DNA from: Azospirillum sp.
Lineage (GTDB): Bacteria; Pseudomonadota; Alphaproteobacteria; CACIAM-22H2
NCBI GenBank assembly: GCA_020249045.1
Contig: JADCGK010000216.1
Span: 1-41,535, forward strand
Direction: 5' to 3'
DNA: 41,535 bases
This document shows positions 20,503 to 41,535 of the stretch, piece after piece. Under the pieces are notes generated by a model. The model searched no databases, was not told the DNA's origin, and saw only the letters and a program-made list of their open reading frames with translations. The translations under genes were made by a program, and so were the position numbers. How positions within the stretch are numbered: the first letter of the stretch is position 1; the number at the start of each line of letters is the position of its first letter.

Positions 20503-21270
20503 TCAGTGCTTGATGTTGCGCCAGACCTTGCGCTTGGTCGCGTAGAGCAAGCCGGTCAGGATGAACAGGAACAGCATCACCTTCACGCCCAGCGAATTGC
20601 GGGCTTCGAGGTGCGGCGAGGCCGCCCACGCAAGGAAGGTCGAAACGTCCTTGGCCATCCGTTCCACCGTCGCGGGCGTGCCGTCGGCGTAGGTCACGCG
20701 ATCGGCCATCAGCGGCGGGCCCATCGCGATCTGATGGCCGGCGAACCAGTCGTTGTAGTACATGCCGTCGCCCAGCACGAAACCGGGCGGCGGATTGTCG
20801 CGATAGCCGGTCAGCAGCGCGTAGACGTAGTTCTCGCCCCCGGCGCGGTTCTTGGCGATCAGCGACAGATCCAAGGGGTAGGCGCCGCCATTGGCCGCGC
20901 GCGCGGCCAGCTCGTTCGGGAACGGCGAGGGGAAGCGGTCGGCGGCGCGCGCCGGACGCTTGAACATCTCGCCTTCGTCGTTCGGGCCGTCGGTGGTCTC
21001 GTACTCCTTGGCGAGCGCCGCCACCTCCGCGGCCGACAACCCGATGCCTTCGAGGTTGCGGAAGCGGATCTGCTTCATCGCGTGGCACGCCGCGCAGACT
21101 TCCTTGTAGACCTGATAACCGCGCTGCAACGCGGCCCGGTCGAAGGTACCGAAGAAGCCGGTATGCGGCCATTCCTGGACCGGCGCCTTCGGGCCGACGG
21201 CCGCCGAAGCGGCCCCCATGCCCAGACCCAACGCCAGCACCGAAGCGATCAGAAGTTTCGCCGTCCGCAT
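20503..21270 (-). CDS. petC: Cytochrome c1 of the bc1 complex
   Basis: The heme-c subunit that passes electrons from the Rieske protein to soluble cytochrome c2. The 255-residue product has a signal peptide ([23 protein letters not shown]), heme motif CAACH at 59-63, the sixth-ligand methionine region IAMGPPL, and a single C-terminal membrane anchor (VKVMLFLFILTGLLYATKRKVW). ATG 21270 overlaps the petB stop by one base (TAATG), so translation is coupled. Last gene of the petABC operon. Confidence 0.97.
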   Translation of the reverse strand: MRTAKLLIASVLALGLGMGAASAAVGPKAPVQEWPHTGFFGTFDRAALQRGYQVYKEVCAACHAMKQIRFRNLEGIGLSAAEVAALAKEYETTDGPNDEGEMFKRPARAADRFPSPFPNELAARAANGGAYPLDLSLIAKNRAGGENYVYALLTGYRDNPPPGFVLGDGMYYNDWFAGHQIAMGPPLMADRVTYADGTPATVERMAKDVSTFLAWAASPHLEARNSLGVKVMLFLFILTGLLYATKRKVWRNIKH

Positions 21271-22544
21271 TACGCCTTCTCCATCGGCTTGCCCGCCGCC
21301 ATGACGCCCGCCCGTCCGCCACCCAAGATCGGCTCCGCGATCGATGCGGGCAGGGGCAACGGCCGCTCGAACCACCCGAGCAGCGGCAGGATGACCAGGA
21401 AGTGGGCGAAATACCAAATCGTCGCGACCTGCCCGACGAACAACGGCACGCCTTCCGCCGGCATGGCGCCCGCCCAGCCCAAGGCCAAGCAGCACACCAC
21501 GAACAGCCAGAAGAACACCTTGTAAACCGGCCGGAAGCGCGCCGAGCGCACGCGGCTGGTGTCGAGCCAAGGCAGCAGGAACAGGATCGCGATCGAACCG
21601 AACATCAGCAACACGCCGCCCAGCTTGTCCGGCACCGCGCGCAGGATCGCGTAGAACGGCAGGAAGTACCATTCGGGGACGATGTGCGGCGGCGTGACCA
21701 GCGGGTTGGCCGGGATCCAGTTGTCCGGATGGCCCAGCGTGTAGGGGCTGAAGAACACGAAGTAGCCGTAGAAGATGAGGAACACCGCGAGGCCGAACGC
21801 GTCCTTCGCCGTGTAGTACGGGTGGAACGGGATCTTGTCCTGCGGACCCTTGGCGTCGATGCCGAGCGGGTTGTTCGACCCGTGCACGTGCAGCGCCCAC
21901 AAGTGGAGCAGCACGAGCCCCGCGATCACGAACGGCAGGAGATAGTGCAGCGCGAAGAAGCGGTTCAGGGTCGGGTTGTCGACCGAGAAGCCGCCCCACA
22001 GCCACAGCACGATCGATTCGCCGACGATCGGGAAGGCCGAGAACAAGTTCGTGATGACCGTCGCACCCCAGAACGACATCTGGCCCCAGGGCAGCACGTA
22101 GCCCATGAATGCCGTCGCCATCATCGCAAGGAAGATCAGCAGGCCCAGCCACCACAGGATTTCGCGCGGATACTTGTACGAGCCGTAGTACAGGCCGCGG
22201 AACATGTGGATGTACACCACGATGAAGAACATCGAGGCGCCGTTCATGTGGATGTAGCGGATCAGCCAGCCGTAATTGACGTCGCGCATGATGCGCTCGA
22301 CCGAGTCGAACGCGCCCGCCGTGGACGGGTTGTAGTTCATGGCGAGGAAAATGCCCGACAGGATCATAATCACGAGCATGACCCCGGCCAGCGAACCGAA
22401 GTTCCAGAAATAGTTCAAGTTCCGCGGCGCGGGGTACTTGATCAGCTGGGTGTCGATCATCGAGAAGATCGGCAGACGATGGTCCACCCACTTCACGATC
22501 GAATTCGCCATGAACGGCGAGGGAACGTAATCGTACTTGGCCAT
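21270..22544 (-). CDS. petB: Cytochrome b of the bc1 complex
   Basis: The quinol-oxidising/quinone-reducing core of cytochrome bc1, with two b hemes. The 424-residue product has the four heme histidines with exact 14-residue spacing: His99/His113 and His200/His214. It carries the [17 protein letters not shown] Qo region and the [13 protein letters not shown] motif. ATG 22544 ([11 protein letters not shown]) is chosen; a TTG four codons upstream is in frame but the family starts here and GAGGCG lies just before it. Confidence 0.97.
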
Positions 22545-22552
22545 GTCGCGCC

Positions 22553-23128
22553 TCAACCGATCCGGATGTTGGAATCGTTGACGAAGCTATAGGTCGGCAC
22601 TTCCAGGTTCCTGGGCGCCGGCCCGCGGCGGATGCGGCCCGACGTGTCGTAGTGCGACCCGTGACAGGGGCAGAACCACCCGCCGTAATCGCCCTTGGAG
22701 TCGGCCGGCTTCTGCCCGAGCGGCACGCAGCCCAGATGGGTGCACACCCCGAGGAGGACGAGCCACTGCTCGCGCTGCACGCGGCGCGAGTCCGGCTGCG
22801 GGTCGGGCAACGCCGCCGAGTCGTCGGCCTTCGCCTTGGCGATTTCCTCGGCCGTACGATGGCGGACGAATACGGGTTTGCCGCGCCACGTCACGGTGAT
22901 CGCCTGACCCGGCGCGATCGGCTGCAGGTTCACTTCGGTCGACGCGAGCGCCAACACGTCGGCGGCCGGGTTCATCGAGTGGATGAACGCCCAGCCCGTC
23001 AACGCTGCCCCGGTGCCGGCGAACGCCGCACTGGCCAAATAAAGGAAATCGCGGCGCGTGGTGCCGTCGGGGTGCTTGCGGCCTTCCCCTTCGCCCATCG
23101 CGGTGGTCGTCGAATCCGGCTGAGCCAT
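22553..23128 (-). CDS. petA: Rieske iron-sulfur subunit of the bc1 complex
   Basis: The [2Fe-2S] subunit that takes electrons from ubiquinol. The 191-residue product has a twin-arginine membrane anchor ([16 protein letters not shown]), and the cluster motifs CTHLGC (Cys129, His131) and CPCHGSHYD (Cys153, His156), with Cys134 and Cys155 placed for the stabilising disulfide. First gene of petABC; petB starts eight bases after its stop. Its leader contains a 17-base tandem duplication. Confidence 0.97.
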
Positions 23129-34615: not shown

Positions 34616-34633
34616 TGTCATGCTAGATTGACA
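34616..34633. promoter_or_regulatory. PpsR/CrtJ-type operator between crtE and crtD
   Basis: TGTCATGCTAGATTGACA is a perfect TGT-N12-ACA, centred between the divergent crtE and crtD genes, so it could control both. It runs into a second inverted repeat, TTGAC-N6-GTCAA (34628-34643). The ribosome sites and promoter elements here are not clear-cut. Confidence 0.7.
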
Positions 34634-34670: not shown

Positions 34671-36242
34671 ATGACCGACGGACGGACGATCGTGATCGGC
34701 GCGGGCGTGGGCGGTCTCGCTTGCGCCATCGACCTCGCCGCGCGCGGGACGCACGTGCGCGTGCTCGAGCGCGCGGCCGCGCCCGGCGGAAAGATGCGCG
34801 CGCTTCCCGCCGGGGACGCCGCCGTCGACGCGGGCCCGACGGTGTTCACCATGCGCGGCGTGTTCGACGCCCTGTTCGCGGACGCGGCCGCCCGGCTCGA
34901 GGATCGCTTGCGGCTGACGCCGCTCGAAGTCCTGGCACGGCACGCCTGGGACGGATCGGCGCATCTCGATCTGTTCGCCGATCGCGCGCGCTCGGCCGAC
35001 GCGATCGGGCGTTTCGCGGGCGCGGGCGCGGCCCGCGGCTATCTGGAATTCTGCGCGCGCGCCAAGCGCGTGCACGACGCGCTGGACCGGGATTTCATGC
35101 GCGCGTCGAAGCCCACGCCCGCGGGGCTCGTGCGCAGGATCGGCTGGCGCGGCGCGCGCGACATGCTGGCGGCGCCGCCGTTCGCCTCACTGTGGTCGGC
35201 GCTGGGCCGCGATTTCGCCGATCCGCGCTTGCGCCAGCTTTTCGGCCGCTATGCGACCTATGTCGGTTCCTCGCCGTTCGCCTGCCCCGCCACGCTGATG
35301 CTGATCGCGCACGTCGAACAGGAAGGCGTGTGGTCGGTCGAGGGTGGCATGGCGCGCGTGGCCCAGGTCTTGGCCGCACTGGCGCGCGAACTGGGCGCGA
35401 CGATCGACTGCGGGGCGGAGGTCGCGCGGATCGAATTGGGCGACGGGGGCGCGCGCGGCGTGGTTCTCGCCGACGGGACGTTCCTGGCCGCCGATGCGAT
35501 CGTCTGCAACGCCGATGCGGCGGCGCTGGCCGGCGGGCGGTTCGGGGCGGCCGTCGCCGCGCGCACGCGCGCGTTGGCGCCCGCGCGCCGTTCGTTGTCG
35601 GCCCGCACATGGACCTTGCGCGGGCGCGGCACGGGCTTCGCCTTCGTGCGCCACAACGTGTTCTTCTCGCGCGACTACAAGGCCGAGTTCGACGCGATTT
35701 TCGGCCGCGACGAGGCCCCGGCGGAACCCACCGTCTATGTCTGCGCGCAAGATCGCGCGGACGCGGCGCAAGCCCCCGACGGGGGCGACGAACGTTTCCT
35801 TGTCCTGGCCAACGCGCCGGCCAACGGCGACCGGGGCGATGGCGGGCCTGCGGCGATGGCGCGCGCGGCCCAAGCTGCAACGGAGGTATTGAAGCGATGC
35901 GGAGCGGCGATCGAACTGGATCACCCGACCGCGACGGCGACGGGTCCGACGGGGTTCGAGGCGCTGTTCCCGGCGACGGGGGGCGCGTTGTACGGCCAAG
36001 CGTCGCACGGCTGGACGGCGTCGTTCGCCCGGCCGGGGACGGCGACGCCGATCCCGGGCCTGTTTCTGGCGGGGGGCAGCGCGCATCCGGGGGCGGGCGT
36101 GCCGATGGCGGCGCTGTCGGGGCGGCTGGCGGCGGCGGCGGTGCGCGCGCATTTGGTTTCGATCGCGCCGTCCCGCACGACGGTTACGCATGGTGGTACG
36201 TCGATGGCTGGAGCGACGACGGACGCCACGGGATCGTCCTGA
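34671..36242 (+). CDS. crtD: Hydroxyneurosporene (1-hydroxycarotenoid 3,4-) desaturase
   Basis: CrtD introduces the 3,4 double bond in hydroxylated or methoxylated acyclic carotenoids. The 523-residue frame has the FAD-binding start TIVIGAGVGGLACAIDLAARG, GPTVFTMRGVFDALF, and the C-terminal GLFLAGGSAHPGAGVPMAALSGRLAA. The YGQASHGWTASFARPG segment favours CrtD over CrtI. Roughly the last 25 residues (PSRTTVTHGGTSMAG onward) overlap the DNA that encodes the conserved start of CrtC in another frame and do not look like desaturase, so the true C-terminus may end earlier or the junction may hold an indel. Confidence 0.92.
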   Translation: MTDGRTIVIGAGVGGLACAIDLAARGTHVRVLERAAAPGGKMRALPAGDAAVDAGPTVFTMRGVFDALFADAAARLEDRLRLTPLEVLARHAWDGSAHLDLFADRARSADAIGRFAGAGAARGYLEFCARAKRVHDALDRDFMRASKPTPAGLVRRIGWRGARDMLAAPPFASLWSALGRDFADPRLRQLFGRYATYVGSSPFACPATLMLIAHVEQEGVWSVEGGMARVAQVLAALARELGATIDCGAEVARIELGDGGARGVVLADGTFLAADAIVCNADAAALAGGRFGAAVAARTRALAPARRSLSARTWTLRGRGTGFAFVRHNVFFSRDYKAEFDAIFGRDEAPAEPTVYVCAQDRADAAQAPDGGDERFLVLANAPANGDRGDGGPAAMARAAQAATEVLKRCGAAIELDHPTATATGPTGFEALFPATGGALYGQASHGWTASFARPGTATPIPGLFLAGGSAHPGAGVPMAALSGRLAAAAVRAHLVSIAPSRTTVTHGGTSMAGATTDATGSS

Positions 36243-37069
36243 TCGCGTTCGTCGGCAGCGTTTTCTCGCCCTACTACGCGCGCGCGCGGGCCAACGGCCC
36301 GGCGGATCCCGCAAACCACGCGGCGCTGAACGTCGCGCTTTACGGTGCTGCACCGCGGCGCTGGGCGATGACCGAGCGCGGACGCGGGGGGCTGACGCGC
36401 GCGCCCGACGCCCTGCGCATCGGCCCGAGCCGGGTGGCAACCGACGGCGCCGATCTGGTCTTCGAGATCGACGAGGTCGGCATGCCCTTGCCCCGGCGCG
36501 TGACCGGAATCGTGCGCGTGCGGCCGGAGATTCCCGCAGGACCGCGCGTGACGCTTGACCCCGACGGTCGGCATCGCTGGCAAGCGCTGGCCCCGCGCGC
36601 GCGCATCGAAGTCGACCTCCGCCGGCCCGAGTTGCGCTGGTCGGGGACCGGTTATCTCGACGCCAACGACGGCGACGCGCCGCTCGAACGCGATTTCCAT
36701 TCCTGGGAATGGGCACGCGCGGCGACCGCAAGGGGCGCTTCGGTCGTCTACGACGTGCGCACGCGCGCGGGTGCGCGCACGGCGATCGCGACGCATTTCG
36801 ACGCCGACGGCTTCAGCGCCTTCGAGCCACCGCCGGCTTGCGTGCTGCCGCCCACCTCGATCTGGCGCATCCCCCGGCCCGCGCGCGGGCGCGACGCGCG
36901 CATCGCCGCGACGCTGGAGGACACGCCGTTCTACGCGCGCTCGCAAATCCGCACGCATTGGGAAGGCGCGCCCGTCGAAGCGATGCACGAATCCTTGCTT
37001 TTGGATCGCTTCGCGACGCCGATCGTGCGCGCGATGCTGCCCTTCCGGATGCCGCGCCGGGCGCGTTAA
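36152..37069 (+). CDS. crtC: Acyclic carotenoid 1,2-hydratase, start codon unresolved
   Basis: CrtC adds water across the terminal double bond of neurosporene or lycopene. The conserved protein runs from FGFDRAVPHDGYAWWYVDGWSDDG, through IAFVGSVFSPYYARAR and DFHSWEWARA, to the stop at 37069, about 305 residues as in Rhodobacter-type enzymes. I report the conserved part because no ATG, GTG, TTG or near-cognate codon lies in frame near it. The nearest in-frame ATG is at 35897 with GGAGG ten bases upstream, but that would add about 85 residues with shadow-like composition inside crtD. A GC-run indel or frameshift from crtD is likely. Confidence 0.85.
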   Translation, partial: FGFDRAVPHDGYAWWYVDGWSDDGRHGIVLIAFVGSVFSPYYARARANGPADPANHAALNVALYGAAPRRWAMTERGRGGLTRAPDALRIGPSRVATDGADLVFEIDEVGMPLPRRVTGIVRVRPEIPAGPRVTLDPDGRHRWQALAPRARIEVDLRRPELRWSGTGYLDANDGDAPLERDFHSWEWARAATARGASVVYDVRTRAGARTAIATHFDADGFSAFEPPPACVLPPTSIWRIPRPARGRDARIAATLEDTPFYARSQIRTHWEGAPVEAMHESLLLDRFATPIVRAMLPFRMPRRAR

Positions 37070-37221: not shown

Positions 37222-38280
37222 TCAATCCCCGCCGTTGCCGTATTGCTCGCGCTCGGCCAGGCGCTCGAACAGCACGATCATCCGTTCGGCGCGGGCGTGC
37301 AGGCGCCACCAAGCGGGCGGCGGGGCGGGAACAGGGCGGCGCGACAAAGAGGCGGCCTCCGCCAGCCGGGCGATCGCCGGCAATGGTGCAGGGCCCGGAC
37401 CTGACGGCGCGCCAGGCGGCGCCAGCGTCGCGCGCAGCAGCACTGCGGCTTTGCGCGACGGTGCGACGACCGCGCGGCCCGAAATTGAATCGAACCCGCG
37501 CCGGGCCACCTCGCGGCCGATCTCGGCGTAAAGGAAGGCGGCCGCGCGGATCGCGGGCCGGCAGCCCGCGGGCAATGCGGCGATACCGGAGACCCCGCGC
37601 TCGTAGAGCGCGTCCGCCGCGTCGAGCACGTCGCCCACGACGCGCGCGACCCGATCGTCGAATCGCGGCCGGGCGAGGAAGACGTCGGGATCGAGGCCGG
37701 CCGCGCGCATGCGGTCAAGCGGCAGATAAAGCCGGCCGAGCCGGGCATCCTCGCCCACGTCGCGGGCGATGTTGGTCAGTTGCATGGCGACGCCGAGTTC
37801 GCATGCGCGCGCGTAGGTTTCCGCGCCGCGTGCGCCCATCAGGATCGCCATCATGGCGCCCACGGCGCCGGCCACCCGAGCACCATAGGCGTAAAGCGCA
37901 TCGAGATCGGGATAGCGCCGACGTTCGGCGTCCCACTCGAAACCCTCGACCAGCGCTTCGGGCAGCGCGCGCGGAATGGCGAAGCGTTCGACCGTTTCTG
38001 CGAAACAGCGGTCGACCGCGTCGTCGAAAGGGCCGCCGTCGTAGATGCGGCGCAAGCGCCAACGCACCGTGTCGAGCGCGCGCGCGGGTTCGGGCGCCAG
38101 ATCGATCGCGTCGTCAACCGCGCGGCAGAACGCGTAAAGCGCCGTGGCGGGTCCGCGCACGTTGCCGGGAAGGATCAGCGAGGCGGCGAAAAACGTCTTC
38201 GAACCGCCGCGCAACGCGCCGCGGCAGGCGTCCAGATCGGCGGCGAAGCCCGCCTCAGCGCCGAAGTTTCGGGCGCGCAT
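37222..38280 (-). CDS. crtB: Phytoene synthase
   Basis: CrtB condenses two geranylgeranyl diphosphates to phytoene, the first committed carotenoid step. The 352-residue product has GSKTFFAASLILP, the aspartate motifs DDAID (56-60) and DVGED (174-178, in TNIARDVGEDARLGRLYLP), and ATALYAFCRAVDD. The usual partner crtI is not adjacent. Start ATG 38280; divergent from bchO. Confidence 0.95.
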   Translation of the reverse strand: MRARNFGAEAGFAADLDACRGALRGGSKTFFAASLILPGNVRGPATALYAFCRAVDDAIDLAPEPARALDTVRWRLRRIYDGGPFDDAVDRCFAETVERFAIPRALPEALVEGFEWDAERRRYPDLDALYAYGARVAGAVGAMMAILMGARGAETYARACELGVAMQLTNIARDVGEDARLGRLYLPLDRMRAAGLDPDVFLARPRFDDRVARVVGDVLDAADALYERGVSGIAALPAGCRPAIRAAAFLYAEIGREVARRGFDSISGRAVVAPSRKAAVLLRATLAPPGAPSGPGPAPLPAIARLAEAASLSRRPVPAPPPAWWRLHARAERMIVLFERLAEREQYGNGGD

Positions 38281-38380: not shown

Positions 38381-38399
38381 GACAGGCTGGGTTGACACT
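38381..38399. promoter_or_regulatory. TGACACT element in the crtB/bchO region
   Basis: GACAG-N7-TGACACT; the same arrangement recurs at 40059-40077. TGACACT is shared with the perfect operator at 34616. It lies 20 bases before the bchO ATG, too near to be a -35 for that gene, so it is more likely a regulator site for bchO, crtB or both. Confidence 0.5.
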
Positions 38400-38418
38400 T
38401 CGAGCGTCAGGAGGCGAC

Positions 38419-39312
38419 ATGGGAGCCTCTCGCAAGCGCGAGTGGGAGCGGCGGGCGAAGGATTGGCCGAACCGCGACGCCAGCCGTTTCGTCGCGGCGG
38501 GCGGCATCGAGTGGCACGTCCAGGTCATGGGTAACGGCCCGTGGGCGCTGCTCGTCCACGGTACGGGGGCTTCGACGCACTCGTTCCGCGATCTCGCCCC
38601 GGCGCTGGCCCGCGACTTCAGCGTGCTCGCCCTCGACCTGCCCGGCCACGGATTCACCGGCACCCCGCCGGCCGGGCGGATGTCTTTGCCCGGCTTCGCG
38701 GATTTGGCGGCGGAAGTGTGCCGCGCGCTCGACGTGGCACCCGCCCTTGCGGTCGGTCATTCGGCCGGTGCCGCGGTCGTCGCGCGCATGGCTTTGGACG
38801 GCGCGATCGCACCGCGCGGATTGGCGGCTTTGAACGGCGCGCTGCTGCCATTGCGCGCGCCGGGTGCGGCGTTCTTCAAACCGGTCGCCAAGCTGCTGGC
38901 GGCCTTGCCGATGGTGCCGGCGATCGCCGCCTGGCGCAGCGATGCGCCCGGCCGGGTCGAGCGGTTGCTGGCGGGGACGGGTTCGCGGATCGACGCGGCG
39001 GGTTTGCGCGGCTATCGCCGGCTTTTCGCCGACGCCGACCATGTCGGCGCGACGTTGGCGATGATGGCAAACTGGGACGTGGCGGTTTTGGCGCGCGACT
39101 TGGCGCGCTTGACGGTTCCGCTCGCCTTGGTGATCGGGGCCAATGACCGTACGATTCCGCCCGCCGAGCAGCGTCGCGTCGCCGACCTCGCCCCGCGGGC
39201 GACCATCGATATGCAGCCGGGTCTCGGCCATCTCGCTCACGAGGAGGATCCCGAAGGAACCGCCGCGATCCTGCGCGCGCGCTTCGAATCCTGGCGCGAC
39301 GCGCCGGCCTAA
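38419..39312 (+). CDS. bchO: Alpha/beta hydrolase BchO, magnesium chelatase accessory protein
   Basis: BchO is a conserved protein of photosynthesis clusters, thought to assist magnesium chelation into protoporphyrin; the exact reaction is not settled. The 297-residue product has LLVHGTGASTHSFRDLAP, DLPGHGFTG, the nucleophile elbow GHSAGA (Ser115), a late Asp in GANDRTIPP and a catalytic-type His in GLGHLAHEEDP. The ATG at 38419 has AGGAGG four bases upstream, which decides the start. Its stop overlaps the next gene by four bases (CTAA). Confidence 0.9.
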   Translation: MGASRKREWERRAKDWPNRDASRFVAAGGIEWHVQVMGNGPWALLVHGTGASTHSFRDLAPALARDFSVLALDLPGHGFTGTPPAGRMSLPGFADLAAEVCRALDVAPALAVGHSAGAAVVARMALDGAIAPRGLAALNGALLPLRAPGAAFFKPVAKLLAALPMVPAIAAWRSDAPGRVERLLAGTGSRIDAAGLRGYRRLFADADHVGATLAMMANWDVAVLARDLARLTVPLALVIGANDRTIPPAEQRRVADLAPRATIDMQPGLGHLAHEEDPEGTAAILRARFESWRDAPA

Positions 39313-40040
39313 GCCACCCGCGAACGGACCGCGAAACGCCGGTCGATGGCGCGGCGGTGCCACAGAATGATCGCCAACCCCACCGTCAAAGGGACCGCCC
39401 ACATGAAGGGATTGAGGGCGAGTTCCGGCAAAATGCGGACCGACCCGAAAGCCATGAACGCGGTGTAGACGGAGATACCCGCGCCGACGAGCGCCTTCAC
39501 ATGCTCCTTGAGCCACGCGTCGGGCCCCGGATCGCGCGACAGGATGAACCAAAGATTGGTTCCCGCCGTCGCGAGACCGACGATGCCGATCCCGACGATC
39601 AAAGGGTTGTCCAGCACCCAGCTTTGCCACACGCACGCGAGCGACGCCGGGACCAAAGCCGCCTGCAGCAGCAGATTGAGCGGCGTGCGATTGGCTTCGT
39701 GCCGCCCTTTGTTGCGGATCGCAAGCCAGCCGTACCAGGCGAGATTGACCGTCAGCAACCCTGCGGCCAGCATCATCCAGCCAAAAATTCCGCGGATGAA
39801 CGGGGCATCGAACAGATCGACGAGATGGGGATGCGTCTCCAACGGGGCGAACAGCGTCATCGTCCCCATCGCCATCGCAAAACAGCCGGTGGCGAACAGC
39901 GCGAAAGCGAAGATGCGGCCCCATTTGGCATGGGCTGCGCCGCCTTTGCGCCCCAGCACGGGGACCCAGAACGCCACAGCACCCGTCACACCCGTGACGA
40001 TGTGGGCGGCGATCAGCACTTCGAACAGGAAATAGGTCAT
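39309..40040 (-). CDS. Polytopic membrane protein (DUF2306-like)
   Basis: The 243-residue product has about seven hydrophobic segments. The N-terminal half, AHIVTGVTGAVAFWVPVLGRKGGAAHAKWGRIFAF, has the histidine and GG-x2-H-x3-G-x-I/F pattern seen in DUF2306-type membrane proteins, which might bind heme or quinone; that is inference. ATG 40040 (MTYFLFEVLIAAHIV) is chosen over a start 12 codons upstream, which lies inside the TGACACT operator region. It is divergent from the P450 gene and convergent with bchO, inside the photosynthesis cluster. Confidence 0.65.
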   Translation of the reverse strand: MTYFLFEVLIAAHIVTGVTGAVAFWVPVLGRKGGAAHAKWGRIFAFALFATGCFAMAMGTMTLFAPLETHPHLVDLFDAPFIRGIFGWMMLAAGLLTVNLAWYGWLAIRNKGRHEANRTPLNLLLQAALVPASLACVWQSWVLDNPLIVGIGIVGLATAGTNLWFILSRDPGPDAWLKEHVKALVGAGISVYTAFMAFGSVRILPELALNPFMWAVPLTVGLAIILWHRRAIDRRFAVRSRVA

Positions 40041-40058: not shown

Positions 40059-40099
40059 GACAGTCGCACTTGACACTCCAAGTGTAAAGGGCGTCTACT
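40059..40099 (+). promoter_or_regulatory. P450 promoter with TGACACT element
   Basis: -35 TTGACA (40070-40075) and -10 TCTACT (40094-40099) have an 18-base spacer. GACAG-N7-TGACACT (40059-40077) and the inverted repeat ACACT-CCA-AGTGT (40073-40085) overlap the -35 and spacer. TGA-N12-ACA at 40058-40075 is one base off the PpsR pattern. It could regulate the divergent membrane protein too. Confidence 0.55.
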
Positions 40100-40155: not shown

Positions 40156-41535
40156 ATGGCAACGACCGCATTCGCCGCGATACCGCGCGAAACGCGAGAC
40201 GATCAGCAGGACATATCCTTCGCGCCGCGGCCCACGCCGCTTCCCGCCCTTTTCGCGCTGCTGCGGTGCGTGCTGCGCGGCGATGGGGATCTTCTATCGC
40301 TGCTGCCCAAGGCCGCCTACAGCGCGGAGATCGGCCCGCTTGGCTATTCGCGCCGCTCCACGATCGTGGTGAACCGCCCGGATCTCGCGCGCGAGGTTCT
40401 GGCCGACCCGCAGGGTCTGCTGCCGAAAAGCGATCTGATGGTCAACGCGCTGGCGCCGCTGATCGGGGATTCGATATTCGTGTCGTCGGGGAGCACGTGG
40501 AAGCGCCAACGCGCGATGATCGATCCGGCCCTGACGATGATGCGGATCACCCGCGCCTTCCCCGCCATGCAAGCCGCCGCCGAAGCCGCGGAGGCGACGC
40601 TGGCCGCACGCGCAAGCGACGGCCAGCCGTTCTCGCTCGACCTCGCCATGAGCCACGTCACGGCCGACGTCATCTGCCGGACCGTGTTTTCGACCGGCCT
40701 TGAAACCCGGGTCGCGCACGAGGTCTTCGACGCCTTCATCGCCTTCGAGCGAAGCGTCGCGCAAGTCGAGATCCGGCGCCTGATCTTCGACCGCGCCTGG
40801 AAGCCGGTGCCGCAGAAGGACCATGTGCTCGCGGCCTGCCGCCTGATCCGCGGGCATCTCGGCACGTTGGTCGACACGCATCTGGCTGGCGGTGCCGCTG
40901 CGTTCGACGACATCGCCGCAGCCATCGCCGCCGCGCGCGACGATACGGGCCAGGCCTTCACGCGCGAGGAACTCGTCGACCAACTGGGCGTATTGTTCCT
41001 GGCCGGGCACGAAACCAGCGCCAGCGCGCTGACATGGGCGTTCTATCTGCTGGCGACGCGGCCCGCCATGGTCGCGCGCCTGCGCGCCGAGGTGGAAGCG
41101 GTGGCCGGCGACGGCCCGATCCTTTTCGAGCACACGCGCCAGCTGCCCTTCGTGCGCAACGTGTTCCGCGAAACGCTGCGGCTTTATCCGCCGATCACGT
41201 TCCTGCCGCGCGTGGCGAACGAAGCGATGCGCATCGGCGGCCGCGCCGTGAAAAAAGGCGCGCTGGTCATCGTGGCGCCATGGCTCATGCATCGCCATCG
41301 GCGCTATTGGCGCGATCCCGACGCGTTCGATCCGGACCGTTTCCTGCCCGCGCGCGAAAGCGAAATGACGCCGGGCGCCTATATCCCCTTCGGGGTGGGG
41401 CCGCGCGTCTGCGCGGGCGCGGGCTTCGCGCAAGTCGAAGCGGTGCTTCTGATCGCGCGGCTGTTCCGGCGCTTCGATTTCCACGTCGAGTCGCCCGAAA
41501 CGGTCCGTCCGGCGGCGCGCTTGACCACGCGACCG
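40156..41535 (+). CDS. Cytochrome P450, C-terminal end beyond the window
   Basis: A 460-codon open frame starting at ATG 40156 and still open at the window edge. Soluble-type P450 without a membrane anchor: WKRQRAMIDPALT (helix C), oxygen-binding I-helix AGHETS at 283-288, ExxR Glu339-Arg342, RYWRDPDAFDPDRFLP, and the heme loop PFGVGPRVCAG with axial Cys419. Nearly the whole protein is present, so only a short tail is missing. It is a monooxygenase needing ferredoxin and reductase partners not seen here. Its place next to bchO and its promoter element suggest a carotenoid or bacteriochlorophyll substrate, which is inference; a terpenoid or fatty acid is also possible. Confidence 0.92.
   Translation, partial: MATTAFAAIPRETRDDQQDISFAPRPTPLPALFALLRCVLRGDGDLLSLLPKAAYSAEIGPLGYSRRSTIVVNRPDLAREVLADPQGLLPKSDLMVNALAPLIGDSIFVSSGSTWKRQRAMIDPALTMMRITRAFPAMQAAAEAAEATLAARASDGQPFSLDLAMSHVTADVICRTVFSTGLETRVAHEVFDAFIAFERSVAQVEIRRLIFDRAWKPVPQKDHVLAACRLIRGHLGTLVDTHLAGGAAAFDDIAAAIAAARDDTGQAFTREELVDQLGVLFLAGHETSASALTWAFYLLATRPAMVARLRAEVEAVAGDGPILFEHTRQLPFVRNVFRETLRLYPPITFLPRVANEAMRIGGRAVKKGALVIVAPWLMHRHRRYWRDPDAFDPDRFLPARESEMTPGAYIPFGVGPRVCAGAGFAQVEAVLLIARLFRRFDFHVESPETVRPAARLTTRP

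Follow-up and report, generated by a model that had tools for sequence, protein, structure and literature searches.

The cytochrome P450 gene at the right-hand end of the 41,535-nucleotide stretch analysed here (the window) probably encodes a dedicated carotenoid-tailoring enzyme of aerobic bacteriochlorophyll-based phototrophs; we would put the probability at about two in three. Judged from the gene itself and from its partners in other genomes, the enzyme most likely oxygenates a linear carotenoid in a previously undescribed way, and the position attacked and the product are what we infer below.

The window spans contig C131, from end to end, of a draft genome of 3.87 Mb and 255 contigs. The P450 gene (40156–41535, plus strand) has 460 codons within it and matches Pfam family PF00067 (p450) at 250 bits (cut-off 22.8; E 4.8e-74), and its reading frame reaches the contig end before any stop codon. 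The first 141 bases of contig C132 (reverse strand) match the last 141 of the window exactly, and C132 supplies 12 further codons and a stop, giving a completed protein of 472 amino acids. The join is supported by a relative in another genus (G021) that has P450, ATP-grasp and CrtI genes in that order on a single contig. The P450 core noted in the first-pass annotation is present in full: AGHETS is at residues 283–288, the ExxR pair is E339 and R342, and PFGVGPRVCAG contains the heme cysteine C419. Across 41 aligned homologues A283–T287 (including the I-helix acid-alcohol pair E286–T287), E339, R342 and C419 are invariant. NCBIfam matches of the window P450 are to P450 models only, with the CrtA model not among them. 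The same genome has one other P450, of ordinary type, on contig C29.

The gene order before the P450 is crtD, crtC, crtB, bchO and a gene for a membrane protein of 243 amino acids. The 1-hydroxycarotenoid 3,4-desaturase gene crtD (34671–36242, plus strand; NF045637, 638 bits, above cut-off) is the customary neighbour of the P450 module among relatives. The carotenoid 1,2-hydratase gene crtC (36194–37069, plus strand) scores 250.8 bits with NF045922, under the curated cut-off of 400, and its real start may lie further upstream than 36194. The phytoene synthase gene crtB (37222–38280, minus strand) matches NF045921 at 356.5 bits as well as PF00494, and bchO (38419–39312, plus strand) matches TIGR03056 at 297.5 bits, above cut-off. 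The P450 had been described as lying next to bchO and crtB, and this needs adjustment: its immediate neighbour is the membrane protein gene (39309–40040, minus strand; DUF2306-like), which is divergent to it and adjoins the P450 in most lineages, bchO comes next after that, and crtB is about 1.9 kb upstream. Genes for the bc1 complex (Rieske, cytochrome b) are found at 21270–23128, near pufLMC. Beyond the P450, C132 carries an ATP-grasp gene, then crtI, then convergent bchD and bchI; the ATP-grasp gene and crtI were outside the view of the first-pass annotation because both are on this next contig. Since the P450 stop and the ATP-grasp start share bases (ATGA) and the candidate crtI starts are at the ATP-grasp stop or a few bases from it, the P450 heads a coupled run of P450, ATP-grasp and crtI. 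TspO-like and ispH genes, read by inspection of the sequence, follow bchI on C132 (L004:11949–13394), and the photosynthesis cluster therefore extends onto that contig.

An upstream element shared with the crtB/bchO region, which had also been noted, is indeed there. One operator-like palindrome, TTGACACTCCAAGTGTAA, is at 40070–40087 in the gap that separates the P450 from the membrane gene, and a second copy, TTGACACTTCGAGCGTCA, is at 38392–38409 in the crtB/bchO gap, just upstream of bchO. The pattern TTGACACT-N3-AG(C/T)GT(C/A)A finds two sites in the window and none in shuffled sequences, a count that is post hoc because the pattern was derived from those same two sites. The element was not found in the equivalent gap of the 44 other loci examined. 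The window has 5 sites of PpsR type (TGTN12ACA), where 2.0 would be expected, and 4 of 100 shuffles reach that count; none of those in the window is beside the P450, and among relatives such a site falls inside the P450/membrane-gene gap in two loci only. A PpsR/CrtJ-type site, TGTCATGCTAGATTGACA, lies at 34616–34633 just upstream of crtD, and a similar one, TGTCACATGAAACTGACA, is upstream of bchI (L004, near 13376).

The window P450 belongs to a discrete P450 clade. Members are 51–87% identical to it, and no more than about 40% is shared with other P450s; in the Acetobacteraceae there is an empty gap in identity between 56% and 39%. The family tree that the first-pass annotation had called for places the 43 clade sequences in one group (support 100/99, stem 0.97) apart from 11 other P450s. 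The closest matches are from Paeniroseomonas (74%), Rhodovarius (71%), a Burkholderiales MAG (61%) and many Luminiphilus/Halieaceae MAGs (54–61%). A whole-genome search of the nearest relatives found five carriers at 57–87% identity, and the clade is present in 57 of 140 Halieaceae-family, 21 of 220 Acetobacteraceae-family and 4 of 74 Burkholderiales-family genomes and also in two further families of Alphaproteobacteria (G554 and G563, 52–53% identity). A search of plasmids with the P450 returned no clade member, all matches being under 60% and the best listed about 40%. In one Burkholderiales genome (G455) the P450 is interrupted by an in-frame TGA (L141:6278–7649), either a pseudogene or a sequencing error.

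Carriers are for the most part phototrophs, taking the reaction-centre family PF00124 (Photo_RC) as the marker and with Fisher tests that ignore shared ancestry. All six carriers among the nearest relatives are phototrophic. The reaction centre is found in 48 of 57 Halieaceae-family carriers versus 5 of 83 non-carriers (Fisher p 2e-22, ignoring relatedness), in 19 of 21 Acetobacteraceae carriers versus 55 of 199 non-carriers (p 2e-8, likewise) and in 4 of 4 carriers versus 22 of 381 non-carriers in the class sample (p 2e-5, likewise). A reaction-centre match is lacking in 11 carriers, nine from the Halieaceae and two from the Acetobacteraceae; incomplete assemblies are the likely cause, because several of them (G078, G157, G325 and G411) nevertheless have bch or crt genes adjoining the P450. 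Outside the Halieaceae most phototrophs do without the P450: it is missing from 55 of the 74 in the Acetobacteraceae sample and from 22 of the 26 in the class sample, so it is not essential.

Such patchiness would suit a passenger gene unconnected with pigments, a possibility the first-pass annotation had allowed for, as would the contrast within the genus of the window genome: four phototrophic congeners (G002–G005) carry the P450 and one (G010) does not, and where G004 reads bchI, P450, membrane gene, ispH, in G010 ispH directly follows bchI with no P450 pair between. The proposed check for absence from close relatives therefore gives a mixed answer, four congeners having the gene and one lacking it. 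Against a passenger stand the association with phototrophy in three samples, the repeated pairing of the P450 with different crt genes, its retention when unlinked from the photosynthesis cluster, and dN/dS values under 0.13. Distribution, crt partners, co-transfer and dN/dS all contradict the idea, and we regard it as extremely improbable.

Which genes adjoin the P450 varies by lineage, and they are mostly carotenoid genes (crtD, crtC, crtI or crtA), a linkage found in Halieaceae, Acetobacteraceae, Burkholderiales and other families. The order crtD, membrane gene, P450, ATP-grasp is that of Halieaceae and many Acetobacteraceae; crtD, crtC, P450 occurs in G308, G314 and G411; and crtI, membrane gene, P450 in the Burkholderiales G455 and G456. 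The cultured strain Paeniroseomonas aquatica CECT 7131 has all three of membrane gene, P450 and ATP-grasp. In G554 and G563 crtA is directly upstream of the P450 (NF045923, 294.6 and 307.6 bits, cut-off 300); these crtA-type monooxygenase genes are at L148:8883–9653, separated from the P450 by a short gap, and at L149:8697–9479, overlapping it. The G554 pair sits among apparent histidine-use genes, with the reaction centre on another contig. Several Acetobacteraceae clusters (L117, L118, L119, L125, L129 and L132) have two CrtD-type desaturases, one adjoining crtC and the other the membrane gene/P450 block, and the second of these may have a different function. In many Halieaceae loci the protein two genes past the ATP-grasp gene has a rubredoxin-like N-terminal sequence (e.g., L022:15028–16467) and is a possible candidate for the electron donor of the P450.

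Bacteriochlorophyll, or its phytyl/geranylgeranyl tail, is another conceivable substrate, the P450 being located between bchO and bchD/bchI in the window genome and the P450–membrane gene pair between bchI and ispH in G002–G005. The genomes in which the P450 is not linked to puf speak otherwise. It lies 2.5 Mb from the reaction centre in G082 and 126 kb from it in G081, each on one contig, and on a separate contig in G083 and G554; it adjoins crtD in the first three of these genomes and crtA in G554, and in none of the four was a bch gene seen among its neighbours. The block transfer described below also goes with crtI. A pigment-tail target, raised in the first-pass annotation, is thus disfavoured, since off the cluster the gene keeps company with crtD, crtA or its own module and not with bch genes, and we consider it very improbable. 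The membrane gene, P450 and ATP-grasp gene stand together without crt or bch neighbours in G108–G110 and therefore form one unit. That arrangement is what would be expected if the three made a non-carotenoid lipid, quinone variant or photoprotective compound useful to phototrophs alone, an explanation that leaves the pairing with crtA, crtC, crtD and crtI across lineages unaccounted for and that we think quite improbable. The P450 can also do without the ATP-grasp partner, of which it is independent in G002–G005, where the gene is missing, and in G308 and G314, where none was seen beside the P450; in G064 the P450 is on its own.

The history of the block favours a carotenoid role as well. By PufM the window genome groups with its own genus (93% identity to G010 and 84% to G002, against 77–78% to Acetobacteraceae). 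CrtI, the membrane protein and the P450 are 81%, 73% and 77% identical to those of the Acetobacteraceae genome G407 and only 62–66%, 50–52% and 57–59% identical to those of its own genus; the ATP-grasp protein is 76% identical to that of G407 and is missing from congeners. The P450 and CrtI trees both nest the window genome in the Acetobacteraceae next to G407, and in both trees the Burkholderiales genomes G455–G457 fall with the Acetobacteraceae. The membrane gene, P450, ATP-grasp gene and crtI have been horizontally transferred as a block that does not include CrtC and CrtD, and their joint transfer fits a single pathway. Pairwise dN/dS is 0.03–0.12 for the P450, 0.04–0.12 for the membrane protein and 0.06–0.28 for the ATP-grasp protein, so all three are maintained, the P450 under strong purifying selection. 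Gene partners, phylogenetic profile, purifying selection and joint transfer with crtI, all drawn from comparison between genomes, lend good support to the earlier suggestion of a P450 acting on an acyclic carotenoid, with the substrate itself still a prediction.

Two known enzymes are informative comparisons. A profile of the clade matches the plant carotene ring hydroxylase CYP97A3 (LUT5; 6j94) best among solved structures, at E 1.7e-70 and over almost the entire P450 domain, and its matches are the only ones under 1e-60; this likeness to CYP97 holds among solved structures only. Both enzymes would have carotenoid substrates. Those of CYP97A3 are cyclic carotenes, in plastids, whereas carriers of the bacterial clade encode an acyclic pathway (crtC, crtD), and the clade is distant in sequence with other gene linkage. 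Spheroidene monooxygenase, CrtA, is an O2-dependent heme enzyme that acts on acyclic carotenoids in phototrophs and, as noted above, is encoded directly upstream of the P450 in two genomes. CrtA is not a P450 (PMC10604819) and is unrelated to the clade enzyme, which comes in addition to it. On a rival reading the P450 would place just a hydroxyl or keto group close to the chain end (C-2 to C-4), beside or in place of CrtA, to give a 2-oxo or hydroxy spirilloxanthin, and the ATP-grasp enzyme would have a different substrate. In its favour, G554 and G563, which branch off first within the clade, have CrtA, the maker of 2-keto groups, encoded beside their P450. Ketolation at C-2, however, is already the work of CrtA, which would make a second, overlapping gene with that task superfluous, and the coupled ATP-grasp gene is left unexplained; we judge this reading unlikely.

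Under the preferred reading of a carotenoid-tailoring P450, CrtB, CrtI, CrtC and CrtD would supply the substrate in the window genome, and the O2-dependent P450 would act on an acyclic carotenoid of the spirilloxanthin/spheroidene type, introducing a hydroxyl group or carrying the oxidation further. The branching order of the clade, in which P450s with crtA come earliest, then those with the membrane protein and then those with ATP-grasp, suggests that the P450 acts alone and that the ligase joined later to use its product. The ATP-grasp neighbour matches PF02655 at 27.7 bits (cut-off 23.2), and a structure model of the Paeniroseomonas homologue (L021) resembles carboxylate-amine ligase folds with Z of about 24. 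The likeness is to 2pn1 (Z 23.8), PylC (Z 21.8) and L-amino acid ligases, with Foldseek E values down to 4.8e-15 and only 15–20% identity to known carboxylate-amine ligases. Such ligases require a carboxylate, so the three proteins would most simply oxidise a methyl group to an acid and then conjugate it. We accordingly propose, with lower confidence, that wherever the ATP-grasp gene occurs, the window genome included, one carbon (a methyl at the chain end being the simplest choice) may be oxidised as far as a carboxylic acid, which the ATP-grasp enzyme may then join to an amine or a comparable nucleophile. The membrane protein may help the P450 at the membrane, perhaps by giving access to the substrate or by supplying electrons. 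Its AF2 model is all-helical (pLDDT 88.7), and a fold search gave nothing under E 0.001 and common helical arrangements only (best Z 8.3); similarity to DUF2306 is weak in 5 of 7 homologues (best 22.4 bits, cut-off 31.6), and the window protein itself has no Pfam DUF2306 match. The whole sequence, in which the three proteins convert a spirilloxanthin-type carotenoid first to a carotenoic acid and from there to an amide-type conjugate in many aerobic phototrophs, is a tentative proposal that we rate as unlikely in this complete form. Rhodopinal-type oxidation at C-20 was also considered as the function and was dropped as a direct explanation; rhodopinal of purple sulphur bacteria is made anaerobically, and a P450 needs O2. 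The rhodopinal producers named in the literature are purple sulphur bacteria (PMC10604819).

Among the open-access papers searched, none deals with a P450 from this cluster; a Citromicrobium study mentions a P450 just as a flanking gene (PMC3338782). There is a precedent for the proposed chemistry in gemmatoxanthin from the aerobic phototroph Gemmatimonas phototrophica, a linear C40 carotenoid with a 1′-methoxy, a 19′-aldehyde and a 16-carboxyl group; according to its authors C-19/C-20 oxidation has no known enzyme, and CruH-like proteins are offered just as a suggestion for the acid (PMC8342508). The likeness lies in the product, and a role of this P450 there would be hypothetical. More generally, the enzymes for oxidised methyl groups on linear carotenoids are stated to be unknown both in a review and in the gemmatoxanthin paper (PMC10604819; PMC8342508). 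Against the carotenoid-tailoring reading, earlier work on Halieaceae phototrophs names bacteriochlorophyll a and spirilloxanthin as their pigments; in Congregibacter and Luminiphilus spirilloxanthin is reported as the sole photosynthetic carotenoid, mostly from absorption spectra and in strains that may not be P450 carriers, and Congregibacter has further polar pigments that the authors set apart from the photosynthetic ones (PMC2654016; PMC3679898). A conjugate with an intact chromophore, or a minor product, could have escaped earlier pigment work.

The carotenoid pathway of aerobic anoxygenic phototrophs, such as the Luminiphilus-type Halieaceae that are common in the sea, is treated as textbook spirilloxanthin. 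A conserved P450 with partner genes of its own points to a step missing from that picture, and P450s are a concrete candidate enzyme type for the oxidised methyl groups on linear carotenoids. Pairs of strains with and without the gene inside one genus make its role directly testable. If the reading as carotenoic acid and amide is true, the photosynthetic pigment class would be new and this would be the first P450 known to act on an acyclic carotenoid.
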